Positions 1,813-19,231 of a DNA stretch of 20,576 nucleotides are shown one piece after another (position 1 is the first letter of the stretch; the number at the start of each line of letters is the position of its first letter). The notes under the pieces were generated by a model that ran no database searches, was not told where the DNA came from, and worked only from the letters and a program-made list of their open reading frames with translations. Source of the DNA: a virus; IMG/VR virus record IMGVR_UViG_3300021197_000744, positions 1-20,576 of that record. One strand, written 5' to 3'. The translations under genes and the position numbers were made by a program.

Positions 1813-3222
1813 ATGCCTATAGATACTAAAAATCCACAATACCAGTTATATAGTCCTGTATGGCAACGTACACGCGATGCTGTTGCTGGCTCGGTCAAAG
1901 TCAAAGAAAAGCGCAATGAATATCTACCTGTTCCAGATGCAGAGGCCGGTGAGGGCTTAGGTACTGAGTCATTAAGATACAGACAATACCTAAAGCGAGC
2001 TGTATATACTAACTTTACTGGGCGCACTAAAAACGCATTAGTAGGGGCGGCATTTAGGAAGAATCCAACAGCTGAATTACCCGAATCATTAAGTTATTTA
2101 CTGGATGATGCTACTGGTGATGGATTGCCATTATCACAGTTAGCCAAAGACACGCTCAGTGACTTACTAGAAACTGGTAGAGCTGGTTTCCTGGTTGATT
2201 ACCCTCAGGCCGATGATGGTTTAAGCGTAGAAGAAATTAGCCGACTAGACCTTAGGGCGTCAATTATTCCTTATTCAGCCGAAAGTATTATTAACTGGAA
2301 AACATCAGTAGTGAGTGGCCGTAAGCTGGTTACTATGATAGTGCTTTCTGAGTCATACTTAGAATCAAATGATGAATTTTCGCATGAGAGTAAGACACAA
2401 TATCGAGTGCTAAGATTACGTAATGACGGTTACACTCAGCAAATTTACCGAGATGAGGCAGCATATACAGATGAATTTTATCCTAAGCAGTATGATGGAA
2501 GTAGCTGGGATTTCATACCATTCCAGTTTATTGGTAGTAAAAATAACGATTCTACTGTTGATGATGCTCCTTTGTCTGATATTGCTAACGTCAATATGGC
2601 TCATTATCGCAATAGTGCAGACTACGAAGAAAGTTGTTTTATCACTGGTCAACCTACCTTATTCATTACTACAAGCTTTAGTGCAGACCAATTCCAGGAA
2701 ATAAACCCCAGGGGTATTAAGCTAGGCGCAAGGGCCGGTCATGTATTAGGTGAGTCTGGTTCTGCTACTTTGCTGCAGCCTAACGCAAACCAATTAGTAC
2801 TAGAGGCAATGAAAGCTAAAGAATCTCAGATGGTGGCTATTGGTGCGCGTATCATCACAGATAGAACTGGGAATGAAACGGCAGAGGGCGCAAGAATCAG
2901 ATTTGCATCAGAAAACTCAGTGCTCGGTGATGTTGTGCACAACCTATCAATGGCTATAAATAAGTGTGTTGAGTGGTGCGGTTTGTTTATGGGCGCAGCA
3001 CCAGATGATGTTAACTTTGATATCAACCGAGAGTTCTACGATAAGCAGGTTGACCCCCAGATGATTATGGCAATGGTTACTTTATTAGATAGAGATTTGA
3101 TTGCACATGGCGATGTATTTCAAAATTTAAAATCAGCTGGTCTTATCGACCCAGAGCGAACTTTAGAAGATGTACAAAGCGAATCAGGTGAAGTTAATCC
3201 ATTAGGAGGAAGCAATGGCTAA
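1813..3222 (+). CDS. Portal protein (DUF4055-like)
   Basis: 469 residues, typical of phage portals. It sits directly after TerL, where portals usually lie. The N-terminal half (YSPVWQRTRDAVAG, a YLPVPDAEAGEG segment, LKRAVYTNFTGRTKNALVG, then LLETGRAGFLVDYP near residues 110-135) resembles the DUF4055 portal family as I recall it. A portal forms a dodecamer at one capsid vertex, through which DNA enters and leaves and to which the connectors bind. The C-terminal part (residues 330-420) is helical, with the ARIITDRTGNETAEGARIR stretch typical of the family. The gene ends in an 8-base overlap with the next small gene. A good GGAGG lies just before that next start. Confidence 0.88.
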   Translation: MPIDTKNPQYQLYSPVWQRTRDAVAGSVKVKEKRNEYLPVPDAEAGEGLGTESLRYRQYLKRAVYTNFTGRTKNALVGAAFRKNPTAELPESLSYLLDDATGDGLPLSQLAKDTLSDLLETGRAGFLVDYPQADDGLSVEEISRLDLRASIIPYSAESIINWKTSVVSGRKLVTMIVLSESYLESNDEFSHESKTQYRVLRLRNDGYTQQIYRDEAAYTDEFYPKQYDGSSWDFIPFQFIGSKNNDSTVDDAPLSDIANVNMAHYRNSADYEESCFITGQPTLFITTSFSADQFQEINPRGIKLGARAGHVLGESGSATLLQPNANQLVLEAMKAKESQMVAIGARIITDRTGNETAEGARIRFASENSVLGDVVHNLSMAINKCVEWCGLFMGAAPDDVNFDINREFYDKQVDPQMIMAMVTLLDRDLIAHGDVFQNLKSAGLIDPERTLEDVQSESGEVNPLGGSNG

Positions 3223-3487
3223 AAAAATTGATAAATCTAAAATGAAGTGTAACACACCTAAACGTACACCAAGCCATCCAACTAAATCACATGTTGTAAA
3301 GGCTTGTGAAAATGGTAAAGAAAAAATAATTAGATTCGGTCAGCAAGGTGTAAAAGGTTCACCACCTAAGCAGGGTGAAAGTAAAGCTGCTAAAGCCAGA
3401 CGTGCCTCATTTAAAGCGAGACATAAAGAGAATATTAAAAAAGGCAAAATGAGCGCAGCTTACTGGGCTAATAAGGAAAAATGGTAA
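3215..3487 (+). CDS. Small basic protein beside the portal, function unknown
   Basis: 90 residues with a very high lysine and arginine content. The start is well supported: a GGAGG lies 6-10 bases upstream and the gene overlaps the portal end by 8 bases. Visible segments are a Cys-containing basic N-terminus (KMKCNTPKRTPSHP), then KSHVVKACENGKEKIIRFGQQGVKGSP, and a charged helical C-terminus (FKARHKENIKKGKMSAAYWANKEKW, residues 66-90). I recall similar small proteins in other phage structural clusters, so it looks like a conserved phage family, but I know no function. Its charge suggests nucleic-acid contact, or a role as an internal or minor head component. That is inference only. There is no transmembrane segment or signal peptide. 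Confidence 0.8.
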   Translation: MAKKIDKSKMKCNTPKRTPSHPTKSHVVKACENGKEKIIRFGQQGVKGSPPKQGESKAAKARRASFKARHKENIKKGKMSAAYWANKEKW

Positions 3488-3520
3488 TGACATGCACTTG
3501 TAAAAGAAAAAGCCTAGTAA

Positions 3521-4597
3521 ATGAATGCTAATGACAAGATTGTTGATGGTATAACACGGCATCATATTTTCGTACAAAGGTATGCAAAAGGTCGAGAGAA
3601 TGAAGCAAGCCAATACATTGGCAGGCTGATAGATACCGTTATCAATCGTATAGAGAAAGGTAACATCACGCAAATATCTAGAGCCAGGTTAGGTGCTTTT
3701 TTGTTAGATCTAACGCAGACTGTCAGATTGTTTAATGATGAGCATTCTAGTGTATTATTAAATCAAGTAGTAGACTTTGCTATAAAAGACGCTGAGACAC
3801 TCGGCGCTATTGTGCAAAACGCAGTTGAGGCACAAATAGCACTACCAACAGCGACGCAGCTAGAAAGTGCCGTATTTACTAACGTGATGGATTTAGAGCC
3901 AGCAAAAGGTTATACAATAAGCTCTATTCTGTCAGAGTTCGGTGATAAGAAAGCCAGGCAGATAGAGCAATATATTCGTGATGGGTTTGCGTTAGGCGAA
4001 ACAACCGACCAAATAGCGTCTAGAATACGCGACACGGCGTTTATGATGAAAAGCCAAGCAAAAGCATTAGCTAGGACTATTGTTAATCATACAGCTACCC
4101 AGGCGCGCAATACGACCATGAAAGAAAACACTGATATACTAGATGGATACAAATGGATTGCCACCTTAGATAGTAGAACGAGTTTAGTCTGCGCCAGTCG
4201 TGACGGTATTCTTTACGATATGGACGATAATAATCCTAAACCGCCGGCACATTTTAATTGTCGCAGCACTATTACATATGTTGTTAAACCTGAGTTTAAT
4301 TTAGGCGGTAATGTAGATATTAAACGACCATCAAAAGGCGCCAGCGGCACAAAGCGAGTGAGCCAAGACACAAACTACGCCAGGTGGTTAAAAAGGCAGC
4401 CTGCGAGTTTCCAGGATGAGATATTAGGTGATAAAAAAGGTAAGCTATTTCGTAGGGGTAAGGTTAAGCTGCAAAACTTTGTTGATGAACAAGGCCGGCC
4501 GCTATCATTAGACCAGCTCGAGGCGCTTGAGCGTAGGATTAATGTGGTACCTAATATTGTTAATAGGATTAGTCCATTAGGCTTACCTAAACCTTAA
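3521..4597 (+). CDS. MuF-like minor head protein
   Basis: 358 residues. The Mu F / SPP1 gp7 core is clear at about residues 170-255: KALARTIVNHTATQARN, a central GYKWIATLDSRTSLVCASRDG, then PPAHFNCRSTITYVV. The family's conserved Cys-His-Cys set is present at C224, H244 and C247. MuF proteins bind the portal inside the capsid and can be ejected with the DNA. The C-terminal segment (residues 286-335: YARWLKRQPASFQDEILG, then LFRRGKVKLQNFVDEQGRPLSL) is a familiar extension of this family. I see no fused toxin domain. The start ATG follows an in-frame stop directly, so it is the first possible one, but its Shine-Dalgarno is poor. A 14-codon mini-ORF (3487-3531) leads into it and may supply coupling. 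Confidence 0.92.
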   Translation: MNANDKIVDGITRHHIFVQRYAKGRENEASQYIGRLIDTVINRIEKGNITQISRARLGAFLLDLTQTVRLFNDEHSSVLLNQVVDFAIKDAETLGAIVQNAVEAQIALPTATQLESAVFTNVMDLEPAKGYTISSILSEFGDKKARQIEQYIRDGFALGETTDQIASRIRDTAFMMKSQAKALARTIVNHTATQARNTTMKENTDILDGYKWIATLDSRTSLVCASRDGILYDMDDNNPKPPAHFNCRSTITYVVKPEFNLGGNVDIKRPSKGASGTKRVSQDTNYARWLKRQPASFQDEILGDKKGKLFRRGKVKLQNFVDEQGRPLSLDQLEALERRINVVPNIVNRISPLGLPKP

Positions 4598-4635
4598 TTA
4601 CATAGTTTTTATAAATATGCTATTATACATATAAT
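4598..4635 (+). promoter_or_regulatory. Candidate promoter before the scaffold and coat genes
   Basis: The 83-base gap between the MuF gene and the scaffold is one of the longest non-coding stretches here and is very AT-rich. It contains an extended -10 (TGC then TATTAT, 4618-4626) and a second -10-like TATAAT at 4630-4635. A -35-like TTACAT at 4598-4603 lies 17 bases before TATTAT, but it matches the consensus poorly. A promoter here would boost the highly needed scaffold and coat proteins. This rests on sequence pattern alone, and AT-rich DNA yields such matches by chance. Confidence 0.3.
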
Positions 4636-4680
4636 TACAAAACACGCGTTAGGCGCAATCCATTAAAAACGAGGTTAGCA

Positions 4681-5343
4681 ATGGAATTTTTAAATGACAT
4701 CGAACTAGAGGCCGATGTAAAACAGCAACTAGAAACAAAAATAAAAGAAACCCTGCAAACAACAGTCGAGGCTGAAGTAAAAGGGCTAAAAGCTAAAAAC
4801 GACGAGCTACTAGGTAAATTTAAGACTTATGAACAGCAAAAGCAAGAGGCAGAGCAACAAGCCAAATTGATAGCTGAGCAGAAAGCAAAGACTGAGAATG
4901 ATTATAAGCAGTTATTCGAGAGTCAAAAGAACGAAACAGAACAGTATAAAAAGCAGCTTGAGGATATGAATAAGAATATCGTTAAGCAGAAGATTAACGG
5001 AGAGGCGGCTAAGATTGCCTCACGTATGACAAAAGACACTAGCAAAGCGAGCTTATTGCAAGAGCAAATTGAACGCAGATTAACGCTAGTTGATAACGAA
5101 ATTCGAGTAGCTGATGAGTCAGGCCAACTGACTGTTAGCACACTTGATGAGTTGGAAGGTTCGATTAGGTCGAATTATCCATTTTTAGTAGATGGCGTAC
5201 AGTCACAAGGTGGCGGCGCAGTTCGTAGTGAAAGCAAGGCGGAAACTACAAGCAAATTAAGTCGTGCCGATTTTGACGCAATGAAGCAAGGTGAAAGAGC
5301 CGAGTTTATTAAGTCTGGTGGCAAAATTTTTGATGATATTTAA
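4681..5343 (+). CDS. Capsid scaffolding protein
   Basis: 220 residues, acidic and almost wholly helical. Residues 15-110 form a long coiled coil rich in E, K and Q (KAKNDELLGKFKTYEQQKQE, then further EQ/KQ-rich helix). Residues 120-165 carry a helical segment followed by a loop, and the C-terminus (SRADFDAMKQGERAEFIKSGGKIFDDI, 194-220) is the short conserved hook of GP20-type scaffolds. The protein would organise coat subunits into a prohead and then leave. Its position right before the coat gene and the absence of a prohead protease support this. GAGG lies 8-11 bases before the start, and the stop is 11 bases from the coat start. Confidence 0.85.
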   Translation: MEFLNDIELEADVKQQLETKIKETLQTTVEAEVKGLKAKNDELLGKFKTYEQQKQEAEQQAKLIAEQKAKTENDYKQLFESQKNETEQYKKQLEDMNKNIVKQKINGEAAKIASRMTKDTSKASLLQEQIERRLTLVDNEIRVADESGQLTVSTLDELEGSIRSNYPFLVDGVQSQGGGAVRSESKAETTSKLSRADFDAMKQGERAEFIKSGGKIFDDI

Positions 5344-5354
5344 GGAATTTTAAT

Positions 5355-6275
5355 ATGGCGAACGTATTAACAAACTTAGCCGCTGACATTTATAAAGCGG
5401 CAGATGTAGTAGGTCGAGAGCTAGTAGGATTTATCCCAGCGTCGACTATCAATGCAAATGGTTCAGAGCGTGTTGCAAAAGGCGATACAGTTCGAGCATC
5501 TTTCACACGTGCAGCAACTGCTGTTGATGTGTCAGAATCAATGACAATCCCAGAGGGAACAGATCAAACTGTAGATAGCAAAACGCTATCTATCAGCAAG
5601 GCGCGAGCTGTTCAGATCCCTTATACTGGTGAAGATATTTTACACCTTAACAATGGTATTGGTTTTGAGACTGTATACGGTGATCAAATCGTACAAGCTA
5701 TGCGTACAATCACCAATGAGATTGAACTTGACTTAGCTACAGAAGCAGCTACAGAAGCTACTGCAGGTAGCATCGGTACAGCTGGTACTACGCCGTTTGC
5801 ATCTGGTTTTGGTGAAGTTGCTGACTTACGCAAATTGTTAGTTGATAACGGTATGCCTACTAATGATGGTTTAGCGTCATTAATCGTTGACACTGCGGCT
5901 GGTGCAAACTTACGCCAGTTAGCTCAGTTACAACGTGCTAATGAGGCTGGTGGTACTGACTTATTACGTCAAGGTATCTTACTAGATTTACAAGGTGTTG
6001 CAATTCGCGAATCAGCGAATGTTGATGTTGACGGTACAAACAATCCAATTAACATCATTATGCACCGTAACGCTATGGAATTAGCAGTACGTGCGCCAGC
6101 CGTTCCTAACGGTGGTGACTCTGCTGATGACGCTATGTTGGTTCAAGACCCTCATTCAGGTATGGTATTCGAAGTACGTATGTACAAAGGTTACCGTAAA
6201 TCAATGATTGAAGTTGCAGCCGCTTGGGGTGTTAAAGCGTGGAAACCTGAATTTATTGGTACACTTTTAGGTTAA
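5355..6275 (+). CDS. Major capsid protein (P22 coat-like)
   Basis: 306 residues. The sequence follows the P22-like coat family as I know it: the start (LTNLAADIYKAADVVGRELVGFIP), a strand-rich segment (GDTVRASFTRAATAVDVSES), the spine helix (GDQIVQAMRTITNEIELDLA, 109-128), LRKLLVDNGMPTN (158-170), ANEAGGTDLLRQGILLDLQGVAIRES (195-220) and the end (VAAAWGVKAWKPEFIGTLLG). This HK97-fold protein forms the icosahedral shell. The usual insertion domain is not seen: after IRES (about residue 222) the chain goes nearly straight to the MHRNAMELAVRAP strand, which explains the 306-residue length against about 430 in P22. Synonymous codons are uniform, as expected for a highly expressed gene. A hairpin follows the stop. 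Confidence 0.93.
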   Translation: MANVLTNLAADIYKAADVVGRELVGFIPASTINANGSERVAKGDTVRASFTRAATAVDVSESMTIPEGTDQTVDSKTLSISKARAVQIPYTGEDILHLNNGIGFETVYGDQIVQAMRTITNEIELDLATEAATEATAGSIGTAGTTPFASGFGEVADLRKLLVDNGMPTNDGLASLIVDTAAGANLRQLAQLQRANEAGGTDLLRQGILLDLQGVAIRESANVDVDGTNNPINIIMHRNAMELAVRAPAVPNGGDSADDAMLVQDPHSGMVFEVRMYKGYRKSMIEVAAAWGVKAWKPEFIGTLLG

Positions 6276-6279
6276 TACA

Positions 6280-6305
6280 TGATGGGCGGCTGATGTCGCC
6301 CGTTA
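6280..6305 (+). terminator. Hairpin after the coat gene (possible partial terminator or RNA stabiliser)
   Basis: Bases 6280-6288 (TGATGGGCG) pair with 6297-6305 (CGCCCGTTA). This gives a 9-bp stem with two G-U pairs around an 8-base loop; the core is GGGCG/CGCCC. Only a short, impure T stretch follows (CTCTTTA), so it would be a weak intrinsic terminator. Its place in the 51-base gap directly after the coat gene fits an element that makes coat mRNA more abundant than downstream mRNA, either by partial termination or by blocking 3' exonuclease. Confidence 0.5.
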
Positions 6306-6326
6306 CTCTTTAGGGTGAGGTAAATA

Positions 6327-6803
6327 ATGGCGTTAATTATAGAAGATGGCTCAATAGTCACTAACGCAAATAGCTACATTACAGTACAGGAGTTCCTGGA
6401 TTGGATGATTGCTAGAGGCTATCCGTGCGAACACGCAGAGTCGCATGTTGAGGAACATATCTTAAAAGCTATGGACTACATCGAAAGTCTTAATTTTATG
6501 GGTATTAAATATACCAAAGAACAGCCATTACAATTCCCTAGAGACAGATTATTTATTGATGGCTACAGTGTTGAGGCTAATGAGATACCAAAGGAGCTTA
6601 AAGAGGCGCTATATAACGCCACTAAAGCTGACCATGACGGTGACTTAGCTACACAGCCAGTAGAGCGTCAAACAGTTAAAGAAAAGATAGGCGATATTGA
6701 GGTAGAATATAAGTCTACCTCAAGCATGCGGCGTCAAACGCCAGGGCTATCTAACGCACTTAGAAAGTTGGTCATTCCTACTACTATGGTAAGTAGAGCA
6801 TGA
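6327..6803 (+). CDS. Head-tail adaptor (gp6-like, DnaT-like domain family)
   Basis: 158 residues. It starts LIIEDGSIVTNANSYITVQEFLDW and continues with paired helices (EEHILKAMDYIESLNFMGIK), a LQFPRD segment at about 71-76 and IPKELKEALYNATKAD. That is the pattern of phage adaptor proteins often annotated as DnaT-like ssDNA-binding, which sit under the portal as a ring. The later EKIGDIEVEYKS segment is the usual C-terminal arm. It is the first gene after the coat, where connectors are expected. GGTGAGG precedes the start. Its stop overlaps the next gene's start (ATGA), the first of three such overlaps. The DnaT label reflects family naming, and a structural role is far more likely. Confidence 0.8.
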   Translation: MALIIEDGSIVTNANSYITVQEFLDWMIARGYPCEHAESHVEEHILKAMDYIESLNFMGIKYTKEQPLQFPRDRLFIDGYSVEANEIPKELKEALYNATKADHDGDLATQPVERQTVKEKIGDIEVEYKSTSSMRRQTPGLSNALRKLVIPTTMVSRA

Positions 6804-7915: not shown

Positions 7916-8827
7916 ATGGCTATTGCAAACGGCGCACAGCATTCATTACAATACGTAGCTGAAACTAGTTACGGAACAACTCCAGCGACTCCATCATGGA
8001 GCGTATTACCGCATACAGGCACAAGTTTAGCACTTTCTAAAGATGCTATTGAGTCAGAGAAGTTACGAGGCGATCGCCAGGTTGAAGATTTTCGACATGG
8101 TAACAAATCTGTATCTGGTGATGTTAGCTCTGAATTAGAATTTGGCGCATTTGATGATTTATTAGAGGCAGTCATGTGTGGCGCTTGGGCCTTAGATGTT
8201 GTTAAAGCAGGCACTACACGCCGCTCATTTACATTTGAGCGTAAATTTGGTGACTTAGCTACCCCAGAATATCACAGATACTCAGGTTGCGAAATTAACA
8301 CTATGTCATTATCAGTATCACCTAACTCTATGGTTACTGCTACATTTGGTGTTATCGGTAAAGATTTAACTATTGCTACATCAGCAACAGGCACTAACGG
8401 TACTGACTCAGGCAATACGCCATTTGACTCATTCACAGGTTCAATCAGTGAAGGCGGTGCTACTATTGCAACAGTAACGGCATTAGAGTTAAGCCTAGAG
8501 AATGGTATTGAGCCATTATTTAGCATCGGTTCACAAACTACTAGCCGTCCATCTATCGGTAAATCACGATTAACGGGTACGCTAACCACTTACTTTGAAA
8601 GCAAAGCATTATATGAGAAGTTCTTAAATGAAACATCATCAAGCATCAGCCTTACATTGACTGATTTAGATGGTAATTCATACACCATTGAGCTTGGCAA
8701 TGTTAAGTATAACAGTGGTCAACCAGATGTGTCTGGCGAGGGTGCTGTAACTATCGCTATGGAGTTTGTTGGTTTATATGATTCTGTAGATGACTCTAAC
8801 TTAGTAATTACACGAGCGAGTGCATAA
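7916..8827 (+). CDS. Major tail tube protein
   Basis: 303 residues, strand-rich. The start (LQYVAETSYGTTPATPSW, about residues 11-28) is the usual signature of phage tail tube proteins of this type. It continues with SGDVSSELEFGAFDDLLEAVMCGAW (61-85), a beta core with LSVSPNSMVTATFGVIG, and a second half with repeated strand patterns ending VTIAMEFVGLYDSVDDSNLVITRASA. Subunits stack as hexamer rings to form the tail tube. It lies 3 bases after the tail terminator, and the following chaperone start lies 2 bases past the stop. There is no obvious extra Ig-like domain; the 303-residue length is within the family range. Confidence 0.87.
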   Translation: MAIANGAQHSLQYVAETSYGTTPATPSWSVLPHTGTSLALSKDAIESEKLRGDRQVEDFRHGNKSVSGDVSSELEFGAFDDLLEAVMCGAWALDVVKAGTTRRSFTFERKFGDLATPEYHRYSGCEINTMSLSVSPNSMVTATFGVIGKDLTIATSATGTNGTDSGNTPFDSFTGSISEGGATIATVTALELSLENGIEPLFSIGSQTTSRPSIGKSRLTGTLTTYFESKALYEKFLNETSSSISLTLTDLDGNSYTIELGNVKYNSGQPDVSGEGAVTIAMEFVGLYDSVDDSNLVITRASA

Positions 8828-8828
8828 T

Positions 8829-9212
8829 ATGGAGCTAACTAGCTTAACTACTGTAGATAAGCATGAGGCTGGGGCGGAGTACAATGTACTCTGTCCCGTT
8901 TCAAACAAGCCTACTGATGTGTTTATCAAGATAAAGGGTGCTGACTCTAAAGAGTGGCGTAAGGCTAAAAAGAATCAGACAGCCGACATTCTCAATGCTA
9001 AATCACAAGGCAAGGAGAAAGAGTTGGACTTTGATTCTATGGATGTAGATGCTTTAGTTTCTATTACCATAGGCTGGAAAGGTATCACTCAGGATGGCGA
9101 AGAATACAAATACAATAAAACAAACGCCAGAAAGCTATACGAAAACTCGCCTAATATCGTTAATCAGCTAATAGGTTTTATTGCTAAGCAAGAAAATTTT
9201 ACCAAGGGTTAA
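8829..9212 (+). CDS. Tail assembly chaperone, short form (gpG-like)
   Basis: 127 residues from ATG 8829, which I prefer over a GTG at 8820 that would overlap the tube gene. The protein has a beta start (ELTSLTTVDKHEAGAEYNVL), a basic helix (EWRKAKKNQTADILNAKSQG) and a helix near the end (YENSPNIVNQLIGFIAKQ) that resembles the core of siphophage tail chaperones. These coat the tape measure while the tube assembles around it. Near its 3' end lies a heptamer A AAT TTT (9194-9200) in the zero frame, followed by a hairpin, so some ribosomes should slip back one base and make the longer fusion that ends at 9505. Confidence 0.83.
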   Translation: MELTSLTTVDKHEAGAEYNVLCPVSNKPTDVFIKIKGADSKEWRKAKKNQTADILNAKSQGKEKELDFDSMDVDALVSITIGWKGITQDGEEYKYNKTNARKLYENSPNIVNQLIGFIAKQENFTKG

Positions 9213-12336: not shown

Positions 12337-12890
12337 TGCCAAGAAATATTGATTCAAGTGTAATTACCGAACTAGCAAAAGATGGGTTTAATTTTTGCCA
12401 TTTAGTGTTTATTGATTTTGATACTGCGCTTTATTTGACCGATAATTTTCGCGATATTTCATACGGTGGTAATGCTTATACTGCCAGTTCACATTTAGTT
12501 GAAGTGGGTTCACCTACCGAAACAAGCGAATTACAAGTTGGTTCGCTAAGTGTCACATTATCCGGCGTTGAACAATCATACATTAGTGCGTTTTTACAAT
12601 CTAACTGGATAAACAAGCAAGTTACAATACAACGCGCATTGTTAGACGATAACAATGCAATTATCGGTACACCGATACCCGTATTTGACGGCCAAATTAC
12701 ACAATTTTCAATTGATGAAGATGAAGACGGTAGCGAAATCGACATTGCTATTGCATCGCATTGGGCAAACTTTCAATTAAAAGGCGGTCGTTTTACAAAC
12801 AACAATTCACAGCAATATCATTTCCCTGGTGATTTGGGTTTTGAGTATTCGCCAAATATTAATAAAGATTTACGTTGGGGTCGCGAATAA
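12336..12890 (+). CDS. Tail tip protein (DUF2163 / gpL-like)
   Basis: 184 residues, mostly beta. Visible parts are FNFCHLVFIDFDTALYLTDNFRDISYGGNAYTASSHLVEVGSPTE (residues 17-62, in pieces), SLSVTLSGVEQSYISAFLQSNWINKQVTIQRALLD (67-101), FDGQITQFSIDEDEDGS and the end LRWGRE. This is the N-terminal hub barrel pattern of DUF2163/gpL-like proteins, which form part of the tail tip between the distal ring and the J protein. No iron-sulfur cysteine cluster is seen (a single Cys), unlike lambda gpL. It overlaps both neighbours by TAATG. No gpK-like peptidase or gpI-like gene follows; the next gene is the J-like protein. Confidence 0.75.
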   Translation: MPRNIDSSVITELAKDGFNFCHLVFIDFDTALYLTDNFRDISYGGNAYTASSHLVEVGSPTETSELQVGSLSVTLSGVEQSYISAFLQSNWINKQVTIQRALLDDNNAIIGTPIPVFDGQITQFSIDEDEDGSEIDIAIASHWANFQLKGGRFTNNNSQQYHFPGDLGFEYSPNINKDLRWGRE

Positions 12891-15800
12891 TGGGTTTTTT
12901 AGACAAGATAGGGCTTGGCTTTGTTGAAGATGCGCTGAAATGGGTGTTGGGTATTGAAGATCCAGAAGCACCAAGCACAACAGTCAACAAACAATCTAAT
13001 ATCGAACCATTACCGGTTATTTACGGCCAACGCAAAGTCAGCGGTACGCGTGTTTTTGTATCGACCGGCGGCGGTCAAAATAACGAATATTTATACATTG
13101 CGCTTGCATTGTGTGAGGGTGAAATTGACAGCATTGGCGACGTATACATTAACGACGTTTTAAGCACCGACGCAAAGTTTAGCGGCAAATTAACTATTCA
13201 AAAATACATTGGTTCAGACGACCAAACAGCAACAACGCTATTTGCCGACGCCGATACAAGTTGGACAAGCGCGCACCGTTTACGCGGCGTTGCATACCTT
13301 GCTATGCGTTTCAAATATGATAGCGATACATTTAGCGGTATACCCGAAGTGAAAGCCGTTGTGAATGGTCGCAAGGTTTATGATCCGCGTCAAGACAGCA
13401 CAAGCACGCATTACGATGCAAGTGTTGGCGTATCAACGCAACGACAAGGCGATCAAAGCACTTGGAAATATTCAAGCAACAACGCCATTTGTTTGCGCGA
13501 TTACCTTACTAATGCGCGGTTCGGTAAAGGTTTACCAACAAGCGCAATCAACGACGCGTCGTTTGTCAGTGCTGCCGACGATTGCGATGATATTGTTACA
13601 TCTTACACAAGCGGGCCAGATATTAGTTTGTTTTCGTGCAACGGCGTATTCCCTACCGATAGCACTGTATTCGACAACGTAAAAACCTTTTTGGGTAACA
13701 TGCGCGGCATCATGGCGTATGAATATGGCCAGTATAAGCTAAAAATCGACAAGCCAGAATCAAGCACGTTTGATTTAACGCCGGACAATATTTTGTCGGA
13801 CATTAAAATCACGTCTAACAGTAAGAACAAAAAATACAACAAGGTGACGGCAAAATTCACCAATCCCGATGCAAACTGGCAAGAAGATACGGCGATTTGG
13901 CCACCGGCGGGTAGTACCGAAGAAACCACATTTTTAGCCGCCGATAATAATCAAGAATTAGCGACCGAAATCACATTATCAAACACGACAAACTTTTACG
14001 CGGCGCGTGATTTAGCGCGTATTGTATGTTTGGCGTCGCGTGATGCGGGCCTACAAATTGAACTAACCGCAACAAGTGAAGCGTTTAATATTGCGGTGGG
14101 TGACGTCGTACGGCTTGAACAGCCGTCACTAGGTTGGACAGGTGCAGCGCGTAAATTGGCCCGCGTATCGTCAATGCAATTGCAAGACAGCGGTGAAGTT
14201 GATTTGCAATTGCAAGAGTACAGCGCGAGCGTATATACATGGGATGAGGGCAGCCAAGCACCGGATTCACCGGCGACAAGTTTACCCGATCCATTTACCA
14301 TCGCACCACCAACCAATTTAAGCGCAACAGCAAGCACACAGCAAGGTGACGACGGTACGACGCTAAGTTATGTCGATGTTAGTTGGACAGCCGCCGACGA
14401 TGCGTTTGTGGCGCAATACGAGCTAACATATACGCCGGCCGGTGGTAATGCGCAAACGGTTATAATTAATAATACCGATTATCAATTGTTGATTATTGAT
14501 ACGAGCGTTGATTATACGTTTAGCGTTAAAAGTATTAATTCATTGGGTGTTAAATCTACAGCGGCAACCGTTAGCGGTATTAGTCCGGTAATCGATACAG
14601 TTGCGCCAGGTGTACCAACATCGTTAAGCGTGACCGGCACGTTCAAGCAAATCGAACTTAAATGGGCCAATCCAAGCGACAGCGATTTTAAATACGTCGA
14701 AATTAAACGCGCCGGTACTACGGTCGAGGGTGACGCGGTTGTAATTGCTACAACGGCGGGCGATTCGTACATTGATGGAAATTATAGCGGTGTTGTGACG
14801 CGTTATTATTGGTTGCGTGCGGTGGATTACTCAGGCAATGCAAGCGCATGGGTATCAGGTGGCGCGGGTACAACGCAACATTTGGTAACAGATGATTTTG
14901 ACGACGGTATCATTAGCATTGACCATATTAATCAAACGTTTTTAAATACGATTGACGGTAAAGCAAGTCAAACAAGCGTTGATGATATAAATGCAAACTT
15001 AACCACCGTCGAAAGCGATATTGTCGGCATAGTTAACGAGCAGCAAGATTTTGGCAATACAATCGACACCATTGCGACGCGTATGCTTACATTGGCAGTA
15101 GACCAAAGCGAGTATTTGGGGTTGATGCGTGATGCGGGTATAACGGTCGATCCAAATAACGGCACAGTATCAATACAAGCCGTTGAAAGTTTACGCACCG
15201 AAACACAAACAAGCATTAACAACGTGCAAATTGACCTTGATGCAGCCGAAGCCGAAATAACGTTAAAGGCAAGCACAACATACGTCAATAATGCAATCGC
15301 TAGTGCGGTATTAGATAGTGCAGATTTGGCATCGTTAAACGCACTTGAAGCACAAGTGAACCAAGCCGAAATCGACATTGATGCAAATACAGCAAGTATT
15401 GCATTAAAAGCCGATGCAACAACCGTCACCGGTTTGGACGTTAGAATAAGCCAAGCCGAGGTCGATATAAATGCAGCCGAGGCAAGTATTTTATTAAAAG
15501 CGGATCAAACCGATTTCACCAATCTTGAAAATCGCGTGACAACCGCCGAAATTGATATTAGTGCGCTTGATGCGGCAAGTATTACACAAACCGTTGCTGA
15601 TTCACGTTCAAACGCACAAGCAATTGATAAAAGTGCAATTACATCATTACGTGACGTATTAAACCAATACCGCGACCGCGAAAATACCATTCAAGATTTG
15701 GCGTTTACGCGTACACAGATTTTTGCCGATGTTAACGACCAACGCGAATCATTAGCGCGACAACGCACAGAATTAGCCGCGTTAATTGACACAAACACCG

Positions 15801-17098
15801 CAAATATTATTAGTGAGCAAACCGCACGAGCAACAGCCGACAGCGCGTTAGCGTCTGATATAACAGCATTGACGGCGACAGTTGACACCAATACAGCAAG
15901 CATACAAACAGAATCAACCTCACGCGCCGATGCGGATACAGCACTTGCAAGCGACATTACATCGCTAAGTGCTACCGTTGACCAAAATGCGGCGAACATT
16001 GCAACCGAATCAACCGCACGCGCCGACGCGGACACCGCATTGGCGTCAGATATAACCGCGTTGACGACAACCGTTGGTAACAATACAACGGCCATATCAA
16101 CCGAACAAACTGCGCGTACCGATGCAGATACCGCGTTGGCGTCGGATATAACGGCGTTAACAACAACCGTTGGTGATAACACGACGGCGATAACAAATGA
16201 AGTCACCGCACGCACTACAGCAGACACAGCATTAGCGTCAGACATAACTGCGTTAACGACTACGGTGGGCGGTCACACGACAAGTATTGCCACAAACACG
16301 ACAAGTATAAACGGCGTAAAAGCGCAATACAGCGTGACGATTAATAACAACGACCATGTTACAGGTTTTGGCCTTGTATCGGATATTATCGACGGAAATC
16401 CAACGTCGTCGTTTACGGTTAACGCTGATTCATTTGGTATTGGCGCAACAGATGCAACCGATGAATATCCATTTGTTGTATACACCACAGCGCAAAACAT
16501 TACCAAAAACGGCACAAGTTACACCATACCGGCGGGAACGTATATTGCCGATGCGTTTATACAAAACGCGGCAATTGGTAATGCAGAGATACAAACCGCC
16601 GCGATTACTACAGCAAAAATTGATAATCTTGCAGTAGAATCAGCCAAAATAGATAACCTGGCAGTGACAGAGGGTAAGATTGCAAACCTTGCAGTTGATA
16701 CGCTTAAAATAAAAGACAATGCGGTAACAATCCCGTCGAACGCATTTACCACAGCCGAACAAAAGACCGGTACTGGTGAAGTAACATTACAAGAAGTTAC
16801 CTACACAAGCACAGGTGCGCCGGCAACCGTTACGTTTTCAGCAATGGTTAAAGCATATAATATCGGTTTTGGTGGTAATGCCATTGGTACGTTGAAAATT
16901 TATCGTGGTACAACGTTATTGCACACATACGACGGCGTGATTAATATGCCATATAATCAAACAACGACAATCGGTTTTACAATACAAGATACGCCGAGCG
17001 CGGGAAGTGTGGATTATATCGTAAAAGGTACGTCAACAAGTAATAATGGGCATGGTTATACGTTGCGATCATTAAGCGTGTTAGAGGTTAAAAAGTAA
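12890..17098 (+). CDS. Central tail fibre / tip attachment protein (lambda J-like)
   Basis: 1402 residues from ATG 12890, which overlaps the previous stop (TAATG) and is preferred over a TTG at 12875. The N-terminal tip part (IEPLPVIYGQRKVSGTRVFV near residue 42, YLYIALALCEGEIDSIGDVYIND near 70) matches J-type hub proteins. A beta-rich middle is followed by two fibronectin III-like domains (about 470-560, 565-660). Next come coiled-coil and pseudo-repeats: 30-residue units from about 819, then five 32-residue units (973-1132). Four 10-residue LAVxxxKIxN-type units (1237-1276) precede a beta-sandwich C-terminus (to 1402), the likely receptor-binding end. Such proteins form a trimer that extends from the tail tip to touch the host surface. 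Codon use is strongly biased (CGN arginine, TCG, ACG, TTG), unlike most other genes here. Confidence 0.9.
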   Translation: MGFLDKIGLGFVEDALKWVLGIEDPEAPSTTVNKQSNIEPLPVIYGQRKVSGTRVFVSTGGGQNNEYLYIALALCEGEIDSIGDVYINDVLSTDAKFSGKLTIQKYIGSDDQTATTLFADADTSWTSAHRLRGVAYLAMRFKYDSDTFSGIPEVKAVVNGRKVYDPRQDSTSTHYDASVGVSTQRQGDQSTWKYSSNNAICLRDYLTNARFGKGLPTSAINDASFVSAADDCDDIVTSYTSGPDISLFSCNGVFPTDSTVFDNVKTFLGNMRGIMAYEYGQYKLKIDKPESSTFDLTPDNILSDIKITSNSKNKKYNKVTAKFTNPDANWQEDTAIWPPAGSTEETTFLAADNNQELATEITLSNTTNFYAARDLARIVCLASRDAGLQIELTATSEAFNIAVGDVVRLEQPSLGWTGAARKLARVSSMQLQDSGEVDLQLQEYSASVYTWDEGSQAPDSPATSLPDPFTIAPPTNLSATASTQQGDDGTTLSYVDVSWTAADDAFVAQYELTYTPAGGNAQTVIINNTDYQLLIIDTSVDYTFSVKSINSLGVKSTAATVSGISPVIDTVAPGVPTSLSVTGTFKQIELKWANPSDSDFKYVEIKRAGTTVEGDAVVIATTAGDSYIDGNYSGVVTRYYWLRAVDYSGNASAWVSGGAGTTQHLVTDDFDDGIISIDHINQTFLNTIDGKASQTSVDDINANLTTVESDIVGIVNEQQDFGNTIDTIATRMLTLAVDQSEYLGLMRDAGITVDPNNGTVSIQAVESLRTETQTSINNVQIDLDAAEAEITLKASTTYVNNAIASAVLDSADLASLNALEAQVNQAEIDIDANTASIALKADATTVTGLDVRISQAEVDINAAEASILLKADQTDFTNLENRVTTAEIDISALDAASITQTVADSRSNAQAIDKSAITSLRDVLNQYRDRENTIQDLAFTRTQIFADVNDQRESLARQRTELAALIDTNTANIISEQTARATADSALASDITALTATVDTNTASIQTESTSRADADTALASDITSLSATVDQNAANIATESTARADADTALASDITALTTTVGNNTTAISTEQTARTDADTALASDITALTTTVGDNTTAITNEVTARTTADTALASDITALTTTVGGHTTSIATNTTSINGVKAQYSVTINNNDHVTGFGLVSDIIDGNPTSSFTVNADSFGIGATDATDEYPFVVYTTAQNITKNGTSYTIPAGTYIADAFIQNAAIGNAEIQTAAITTAKIDNLAVESAKIDNLAVTEGKIANLAVDTLKIKDNAVTIPSNAFTTAEQKTGTGEVTLQEVTYTSTGAPATVTFSAMVKAYNIGFGGNAIGTLKIYRGTTLLHTYDGVINMPYNQTTTIGFTIQDTPSAGSVDYIVKGTSTSNNGHGYTLRSLSVLEVKK
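15344..15583 (+). repeat. 90-base (30-residue) pseudo-repeats in the J-like fibre
   Basis: Two full units (15344-15433, 15434-15523) and a 20-residue partial third (15524-15583) share the pattern L-x3-[VI]-x2-AE[IV]DI, then a short helix and a SI-x-LKAD segment. An earlier, looser copy lies before 15344 (AEAEITLKAS). The units are diverged in DNA but share register. They are probable coiled-coil segments of the fibre stalk. Confidence 0.7.
15806..16285 (+). repeat. Five 96-base (32-residue) tandem repeats in the J-like fibre
   Basis: The units are 15806-15901, 15902-15997, 15998-16093, 16094-16189 and 16190-16285; a decayed sixth begins at 16286. The consensus is roughly ESTARADADTALASDIT followed by ALTTTVGxNTT. 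All five carry ALASDIT exactly, but each codes it with a different 21-base string. The pattern suggests a trimeric coiled-coil stalk whose length can change by whole units. Confidence 0.9.
16598..16717 (+). repeat. Four 30-base (10-residue) repeats near the fibre tip
   Basis: The units AAITTAKIDN, LAVESAKIDN, LAVTEGKIAN and LAVDTLKIKD run without gaps from 16598 to 16717, followed by NAVTIPS. This short-repeat type is common just before the terminal domain of phage fibres, where it probably forms a beta-helical or triple-stranded neck. Confidence 0.8.
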
Positions 17099-17476: not shown

Positions 17477-19231
17477 ATGGCGTGGTATGACACAGGTACG
17501 GTTGCAGTAACAAACGGCTCAACCACCGTTACCGGTACAGGCACAAACTTTATTACAGGCGCACAAATTGGTGAAGCCTTTTATGGCCCAGACGATAAGC
17601 TATATGAGATTGCATCAATCACAAGTGCAACCGTATTGGTGTTAGCTGATAATTATCTAGGCTCAACGCAATCAGGACAAGGCTATAAGATTGTACCGAC
17701 TCAATCCCTAGTTGCTGATTTAGCCAGTGATGTTACCGACCTTATCGCAGATTATGCCGATGTTAAAGATAAAGCAGGCGCAGGTAAGTTCAACGATGGC
17801 TCAGTAACCGCACCTGCTATCACATTTGAACAAGACCAGAATAACGGCTTATATCGTATCGGCTCAGATAATTACGGTTTATCAGCAGGTGGCACAAAGC
17901 AGATTGATATTAGCACCACAGATGTCGAGCTGAATTACTCAGGCAGTAAGAAACTAGCCACAACTGCCACAGGCGTTGACGTTACAGGTACAGTGACTGC
18001 GGATGGTTTGACGGTTGATGATGGCGGTATAGGTACAGCAACAGACTCAATTAAAATTAAGTCAGGTTGGAGTAGCCCGTCTGGTTTAAAGTCTATCGCA
18101 TTTGAAGACCAATCTAGTAATACAATAGGTCAGTTTGGTGTGTCTTATTCAGGTGGGGTGGGCTCTTTCGAGATTGATTCACTTTACAATTCAGGCAATA
18201 ACTCAAATAAAGTATTCAAGGTAAGTGCAGGTGGAGACGTATCATTCTACGAAGACACTGGCACGACTGCGAAGATGGTGTGGGATGCTAGTGCTGAATG
18301 TCTAAGATTAGGTGCAACTTCAAGTTTAGGTAAATTAAGTATAAAGCAAGATAGTGATACGACAACTGGCGGCTTGCTTATTGGCTCCACCGATGGTGCG
18401 GCAGGTGCTATTAGCCGATTAACTTCAGGCGCTATGGTTTTTAGAAATAACGTTATAGATACCATGTATTTAAAATCAGGCAACGTTGGGATTGGTACGG
18501 CTAGTCCTAGTTACACTCTTGATATTCTTGCTACAACAGCACAGGCACGTATTGAGTCAACTTCAGGTAATGCTCTTTTACGCATTCAGTCTACAGATAC
18601 TGGCGAATCAAAAATTTATTTTGGTGATACCACTGGCAATGCCGTAGGACGTATTGAATATGAACACCTTAATGACTCGATGCGCTTTCACACTGACAAC
18701 ACAGAACGAGCCAGAATAGACAGCTCGGGTAATCTATTGGTTGGCACTACGTTATCGCCTATTGATTTAGTCACTTCAACCAGTATCACAGGTTTTGGTT
18801 ATGACGCAAATGATTATTTAGCTATTGCAAGAGACGGAAACCCTCTAATCTTAAATAGAGTTGGAAGTGACGGTAGTATTACTAGTTTTAGCAAAGACGG
18901 CGTAATAGTTGGGTCGATTTCTGTAACAGGCTCAGCCACAAGCTACAACACAAGCTCAGACGAACGCTTAAAAGAAAACATTAAAGACACTACACATACT
19001 ACAGATATTGATGACATTAAAGTACGAGAGTTTGATTGGAAATTAGATGGTAGTCATCAACGCTATGGTTTCATAGCTCAAGAGTTAGAAGTGGTTTATC
19101 CAGAAGCGGTCACACGCCATGATAGCGATGATGAAATGATGTCAGTGGACTACAGTAAACTTGTACCACTACTGGTTAAAGAGATACAGCAACTTAAAAC
19201 ACGAATTGAAGCGTTAGAGGCTAAACTGTAA
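17477..19231 (+). CDS. Tail fibre with self-cleaving S74 chaperone domain
   Basis: 584 residues. The N-terminal 78 residues (TGTVAVTNGSTTVTGTGTNF, then YGPDDKLYEIASITSAT and a GSTQSGQGYKI ending) form the adaptor domain common on phage fibres. The shaft (about 95-485) has fibre motifs such as GLYRIGSDNYGLSAGG, GNVGIGTASPSYTLDI and ERARIDSSGNLLVGT. The last 96 residues are a Peptidase_S74 intramolecular chaperone: SSDERLKENI (493-502, likely cleavage serine at 493/494 and K499), YGFIAQELE and a final trimerising helix. The domain assembles the trimer and then cuts itself off. Codon use turns from GC-ending to AGA/CTA-rich at about base 17600, near the adaptor-shaft border. The stop overlaps the HNH gene by TAATG. 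Confidence 0.9.
   Translation: MAWYDTGTVAVTNGSTTVTGTGTNFITGAQIGEAFYGPDDKLYEIASITSATVLVLADNYLGSTQSGQGYKIVPTQSLVADLASDVTDLIADYADVKDKAGAGKFNDGSVTAPAITFEQDQNNGLYRIGSDNYGLSAGGTKQIDISTTDVELNYSGSKKLATTATGVDVTGTVTADGLTVDDGGIGTATDSIKIKSGWSSPSGLKSIAFEDQSSNTIGQFGVSYSGGVGSFEIDSLYNSGNNSNKVFKVSAGGDVSFYEDTGTTAKMVWDASAECLRLGATSSLGKLSIKQDSDTTTGGLLIGSTDGAAGAISRLTSGAMVFRNNVIDTMYLKSGNVGIGTASPSYTLDILATTAQARIESTSGNALLRIQSTDTGESKIYFGDTTGNAVGRIEYEHLNDSMRFHTDNTERARIDSSGNLLVGTTLSPIDLVTSTSITGFGYDANDYLAIARDGNPLILNRVGSDGSITSFSKDGVIVGSISVTGSATSYNTSSDERLKENIKDTTHTTDIDDIKVREFDWKLDGSHQRYGFIAQELEVVYPEAVTRHDSDDEMMSVDYSKLVPLLVKEIQQLKTRIEALEAKL

Follow-up and report, generated by a model that had tools for sequence, protein, structure and literature searches.

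The central tail fibre gene of the window (the whole stretch of DNA that was analysed, 20,576 bases of a virus record with terminase, portal, major head and tail genes according to PHROG annotation) encodes five 32-residue units arranged head to tail, and the codons of these units differ from each other as much as expected by chance. The scrambling of codons in the array is synonymous saturation and nothing beyond it. Our preferred reading, to which we assign a probability of roughly 0.8, is that the units constitute an old tandem coiled-coil array, probably a trimeric spacer in a stalk similar to that of lambda gpJ, that is under selection at the protein level and saturated at its synonymous sites. 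The codons would look scrambled because synonymous sites drifted to saturation while purifying selection held the core residues.

The five-unit array in the J gene

The product of the J gene is 1407 amino acids long when counted from the TTG, and the in-frame ATG at 12890 may be the start instead. The phrog_31 profile covers most of the protein (best stretch residues 116-1111), the N-terminal part matches a solved baseplate hub protein (PDB 8hqz_A), and upstream of the array lies a coil with repeats of about 30 residues, for which the match to the tail needle protein gp26 (4zkp_A) is weak (E=2e-4). In the register used here, the five full units occupy J residues 973-1132 (15791-16270); the register of an earlier note on this DNA was 15806-16285. 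Between units 19-27 of 32 residues are identical, and Tandem Repeats Finder reported a 96-base period with 3 copies at 15974-16257. The earlier note had stated that the heptapeptide ALASDIT is present in all five units and spelled by five different 21-mers, with TCT, AGC, TCA, TCG and TCA for Ser and TTA, CTT, TTG, TTG and TTA for Leu, and this was borne out by reading the codons: the motif occurs exactly five times, starting at nucleotides 15845, 15941, 16037, 16133 and 16229, i.e. with a spacing of 32 residues.

Table 1. Features of the J gene in the window.
Feature	Position	Strand	Basis
J-type central tail fibre gene	12875..17098	+	phrog_31 'central tail fiber J', E=4.2e-84
Baseplate-hub N-terminal part, residues 128-531	13256..14467	+	phmmer to PDB 8hqz_A, E=9.3e-19
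Coil upstream of array, residues 820-919	15332..15631	+	weak phmmer match, gp26
Single uninterrupted alpha helix (predicted)	15761..16330	+	AlphaFold2 monomer model
Unit 1 TNTANIISEQTARATADSALASDITALTATVD	15791..15886	+	
Unit 2 TNTASIQTESTSRADADTALASDITSLSATVD	15887..15982	+	
Unit 3 QNAANIATESTARADADTALASDITALTTTVG	15983..16078	+	
Unit 4 NNTTAISTEQTARTDADTALASDITALTTTVG	16079..16174	+	
Unit 5 DNTTAITNEVTARTTADTALASDITALTTTVG	16175..16270	+	
Straight-fibre (CSF / Phage_Tail_Tip-like) domain, putative	16319..16606	+	hhalign; 9ze4_N match

An AlphaFold2 monomer model built with a six-row alignment predicts a single helix through the array (residues 2-189 of 190, mean pLDDT 97). Over 97 arrays the most conserved positions of the unit were I6 (0.90), E9 (0.99), R13 (0.99) and D17 (0.97), positions 20, 24 and 27 were V, I, L, M or F at frequencies of 0.95-0.98, and at the junction between units V31 (0.82), N2 (0.85) and T3 (0.60) stood out beside I6. 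The spacing between units was 32 residues in 430 cases, the next most common being 33 (27 cases). If positions 31, 2, 6, 9, 13, 16, 20, 24 and 27 are taken as the core, the spacings 3-4-3-4-3-4-4-3-4 sum to 32, which we read from the conserved positions as three heptads and one hendecad; core positions 9, 13 and 16 are E, R and A and not large aliphatic residues. Trimeric coiled coils with asparagine at position d (N@d) have layers of the pattern hydrophobic-x-x-N-T-x-x-hydrophobic. The junction V-x-x-N-T-x-x-I fits such a layer, and would be compatible with a trimer. Asparagine triads at d that bind chloride have been described (PMC12933892).

Codon identity in the window array and in its relatives

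Codons were compared for the ten unit pairs of the window array at the 228 positions where both units carry the same degenerate amino acid. The same codon was used at 87 of these positions, and the expected number was 85.8 (sd 8.2) from the codon usage of the J gene outside the array, 77.6 (sd 8.1) from the usage of 18 window genes and 83.3 (sd 6.4) when the array's own codons were dealt among positions with the same residue (z 0.57 and 0.17 under two nulls). Of random synonymous spellings, 99.7% gave five distinct 21-mers for ALASDIT and 90% mixed AGY with TCN serine codons; outside the array AGY accounts for 67 of the 106 serine codons in the J gene. Exact repeats within the array reach at most 12 nt, where the null gives a mean of 14 (P=0.36). 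Pairwise dS between units ranged from 0.82 to infinite and dN from 0.12 to 0.44.

Two explanations had been offered in the earlier note: that the repeats are old and under strong protein-level selection, or that long identical DNA is selected against. The first is supported by the dS and dN values with their saturated synonymous sites, and also by the conservation of most core positions over the 97 arrays. According to the second, recombination deletes identical tandem units so that synonymous changes that break identity are favoured and diverged arrays survive; we regard this as improbable, given that across arrays there was no deficit of identical codons, no shortening of identical runs and no significant difference between adjacent and non-adjacent units.

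For this survey, the J protein, the array and an alignment of three units served as queries (79 loci taken in from 365 relatives), and 93 arrays of three or more units were obtained, copies included (74 were distinct). A later scan (80 loci of 176) and added records brought the set to 88 distinct arrays, which fall into 29 lineages. Units that overlapped, were aligned with gaps or scored below 10 bits (first scan) or 8 bits (later scan) were left out, and at most the first 10 units per array entered the test by lineage. In none of the 93 arrays did codon identity fall short of either null by more than 2 sd; it exceeded the within-array null by more than 2 sd in 53 arrays and the gene-usage null in 35. 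By lineage (29 lineages, 88 arrays), z was below -2 in none, within 2 sd in 18 and above in 11. For the longest arrays the two nulls disagree (e.g. z for L024 was 9.0 within the array and 0.7 with gene usage), which indicates that codon usage differs there between array and gene. In the 57 of 88 arrays that are saturated (20 lineages) the average identical run exceeded the null in length (mean z 1.79; none below -2 and 28 above +2), and similarity was not lower between adjacent units than between distant ones (71 arrays, p = 0.22). These results count against selection that breaks up identical DNA, while leaving room for weak or past selection. The apparently striking pattern of same protein with different codons is accordingly a product of synonymous saturation, for which the comparison above supplies a simple null model. 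No report describing such a codon pattern was found in the literature, which was covered mostly without subscription papers.

The observations that favour selection against identical DNA come from pairs of units with almost the same protein sequence. Many unit pairs in the marine arrays are identical at 29 or more of 32 residues while their codons are nearly saturated (O/E 1.05-1.35), and in the Enterobacter phage-plasmid L175 two pairs with at least 29 identical residues share 20 of 60 codons. Such sameness of protein is more than saturation by itself predicts, except under very tight constraint or in very old pairs. Among the 48 arrays with pairs of this kind (O/E averaged over each array's pairs with at least 29/32 identical residues), nine had O/E of 2.21 or more, i.e. 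nearly identical DNA, and 39 had 1.74 or less, the gap from 1.74 to 2.21 being empty with no null applied. At 28-31 identical residues unit pairs shared 58% of codons and non-array orthologous J windows 76%; tighter constraint or older unit pairs can explain this difference and a filter at the DNA level could as well, and the comparison, which is made at matched protein identity between paralogs and orthologs and is confounded by pair age, was not used as a test. When all 32 residues were identical, the shared fraction was 99% in unit pairs (19 pairs in 4 arrays) compared with 87% in orthologs, which again speaks against selection for diverged codons. That a DNA-level filter operates, such that new DNA-identical units are soon lost or persist only when diverged in codons, seems to us improbable; if it did, long-lived rods would consist of near-identical protein units in different codons and be a natural counterpart of the codon scrambling of repetitive genes.

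Switches between AGY and TCN serine codons were considered as a sign of accelerated synonymous change and rejected, since their rates were below the random expectation of 43%: the two serines of a pair differed in class in 28-31% of cases in unit pairs at a four-fold difference above 0.4 and in 19-25% in the marine family, compared with 36-41% in orthologous windows at a four-fold difference above 0.6. At a four-fold difference of 0.2-0.3 the rate was 0.235 in units and 0.033 in orthologs, an excess that may reflect mosaic units. Serine switches seem to inflate the Nei-Gojobori dN of marine unit pairs, and marine dN/dS was therefore not used. Metagenome assembly is unlikely to be the cause of saturation, given that 10 arrays from isolate phages or plasmids have O/E of 0.90-1.18 (one of them, L174, with two units only). 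Short-read assembly may still obscure arrays of identical DNA in IMG/VR, and individual copy-number variants (L050, for example) may be affected by it.

Gain, loss and origin of units

Near-identical units at the DNA level in relatives, which the earlier note had named as the refuting finding, one that would show recent duplication to be common and tolerated, were looked for and found. They are present in L088, L005, L030, L080, L081, L089 and L093/L094/L097. In L088 the eight units share 714 of 749 codons (array within the ORF 2204-6485), and this array, built of the window's type of unit, has expanded very recently; L005 and L030 have one unit pair each with all 32 codons identical. Two copies of a 99-base unit, 0.99-1.00 identical, lie in a complete E. 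coli phage-plasmid (NZ_CP182176.1). From these cases it follows that recent duplication occurs and is tolerated at least temporarily.

Comparison of unit numbers in related phages, together with a search for deletion variants, had also been suggested, and whole-unit differences were found. Within the marine family, array flanks compared over up to 450 bases per side are about 97-99% identical, while the arrays contain 3, 4, 5 or 6 units and their lengths vary in steps of 32 residues. Identity reached 95% or more in both flanks for 37 pairs of distinct arrays, of which 25 were equal and 12 different in array length. L050 corresponds to L055 less one unit, with 0 mismatches in 480; this deletion or duplication of one unit is of the kind that selection against identical DNA presupposes. 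Given that unit number varies among arrays with scrambled codons, scrambling does not prevent gain or loss of units, which weighs against the same explanation. In L032 and L060, with four units each and flanks 99-100% identical, identity falls to 0.81 for unit 2 and 0.72 for unit 3, indicating that different units have been kept or exchanged. The marine contigs with similar J flanks and 3-6 units, the units being mosaic, are L029, L031, L032, L034, L037, L039, L040, L043, L050, L055, L057 and L060.

A match to the phage-plasmid J region was present in 225 of 5,426 complete E. coli genomes. Among the 60 of these 225 that were listed, 43 matches had at least 99% cover (the record of the query included), of which 40 span exactly 2,641 bases, one is 99 bases longer, one is 99 bases shorter and one, which carries an IS1 annotation, is longer. 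Since units of the phage-plasmids mostly have 33 residues, 99 bases correspond to one unit. In an E. coli plasmid (NZ_CP020118.1, 40857-44273) an IS1 family transposase is annotated inside the J match, which is split in two pieces. The survey also provides natural copy-number variants of a candidate fibre spacer in steps of 32 or 33 residues beside near-identical flanks, and such length variants would allow one to ask whether unit number tunes the reach of the fibre.

The window array itself probably grew from one unit. The coil that precedes the array is also present in five relatives, L001 and L180-L183 (44-66% identity), where a single 32-residue unit, complete or almost so, stands at the place of the array (29-42 bits), other hits of the unit profile in them being partial and at most 8.3 bits. 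In protein identity to units 1-5 of the window, this single unit was closest to unit 1 in 5/5 relatives (19, 20, 21, 19 and 13 of 32, the last leading by one residue), as expansion from one unit in the window lineage predicts; the expansion would have taken place long enough ago for synonymous sites to saturate. In L001 and L180-L182 other repeats follow the single unit. In L001, whose J is 39% identical, four copies of a repeat of about 61 residues (TADGK...DLWIDTND...) at about 8300-9000 replace units 2-5, suggesting that the spacer module is exchangeable for another type.

A different origin would be that the units were collected from other phages by recombination and were never DNA-identical in the window genome. 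The best foreign DNA matches of units 1, 2 and 5 (68, 65 and 68 of 96) are indeed slightly better than the best matches within the array (64, 63 and 66), and the differing middle units of L032 and L060 would fit exchange in the marine family. The foreign matches are, however, maxima over hundreds of units compared with four own units, units 3 and 4 match each other best (73/96), and no trace of recent import was seen, the closest unit in other arrays being only 70/96 at the DNA level. Together with the single units of the five relatives this makes assembly from foreign units an unlikely origin, and growth from one unit is preferred.

The array as a probable spacer and its counterparts in other fibres

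A module of 32 residues would make nine turns and keep the helix in register, so that the rod would stay intact when whole units are gained or lost. As a spacer, the array would probably set the reach from the tail tip to the receptor-binding end, each unit adding about 4.8 nm if a residue contributes 0.15 nm. Lambda gpJ consists, in this order, of FNIII, the three-helix bundle AHS (upper helix 809-840), CSF and RBD, and the helix bundle is remodelled upon receptor binding (PMC11101478). The window J resembles lambda gpJ in its match to phrog_31 and in a predicted helical segment directly before a putative straight-fibre-like domain, which is the position of AHS, whereas lambda has one short helix bundle in place of five tandem units. 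The unit profile gave no match above 0 bits in lambda J. By Pfam, PF24801, PF13550, PF09327 and PF12421 are all present in lambda J and the first three in the L175 J; none of the four was found in the window J at E<=1, where only two unrelated sub-threshold matches appeared, and the window J thus differs from lambda also in the C-terminal receptor-binding domain PF12421. FNIII domains were likewise not found in the window J by Pfam.

The straight-fibre-like domain was aligned by hhalign, using five sequences of the lineage against lambda J and two phage-plasmid J proteins (E=3.9e-5 over 77 columns, with a probability of only 70%). Residues 1023-1203, spanning the array and this domain, match PDB 9ze4_N (tip attachment protein J, central straight fibre) with E=2.9e-10, a sequence match of low identity.

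The same unit type as in the window is found in the J proteins (TipJ, DUF1983/Phage_Tail_Tip) of Salmonella phage SSU5 and of E. coli and Enterobacter phage-plasmids, and the L175 array stands before a Phage_Tail_Tip domain (PF09327). Unlike in the window, the spacing in these proteins is mostly 33 residues and most units vary more in amino acids. Four such phage or phage-plasmid arrays (L171, L173, L175 and L176) have 5-11 units with saturated codons (O/E 0.90-1.02). In Enterococcus phage EfV12-phi1, tail-fibre duplications of 1.8 kb arose in experimental co-evolution (PMC6365445); these are similarly in-frame changes in copy number within a tail fibre gene, differing in that the duplicated segments are 1.8 kb long and not short coiled-coil units.

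Past the straight-fibre-like domain, the window contains at 16589-16696 a series of repeats of about 10 residues (IQTAAI, IDNLAV, IDNLAV, IANLAV) whose codons are likewise varied. Downstream of J and a Phage_tail_APC gene there is a second tail fibre gene (17477-19231) with a Peptidase_S74 chaperone domain at its end.
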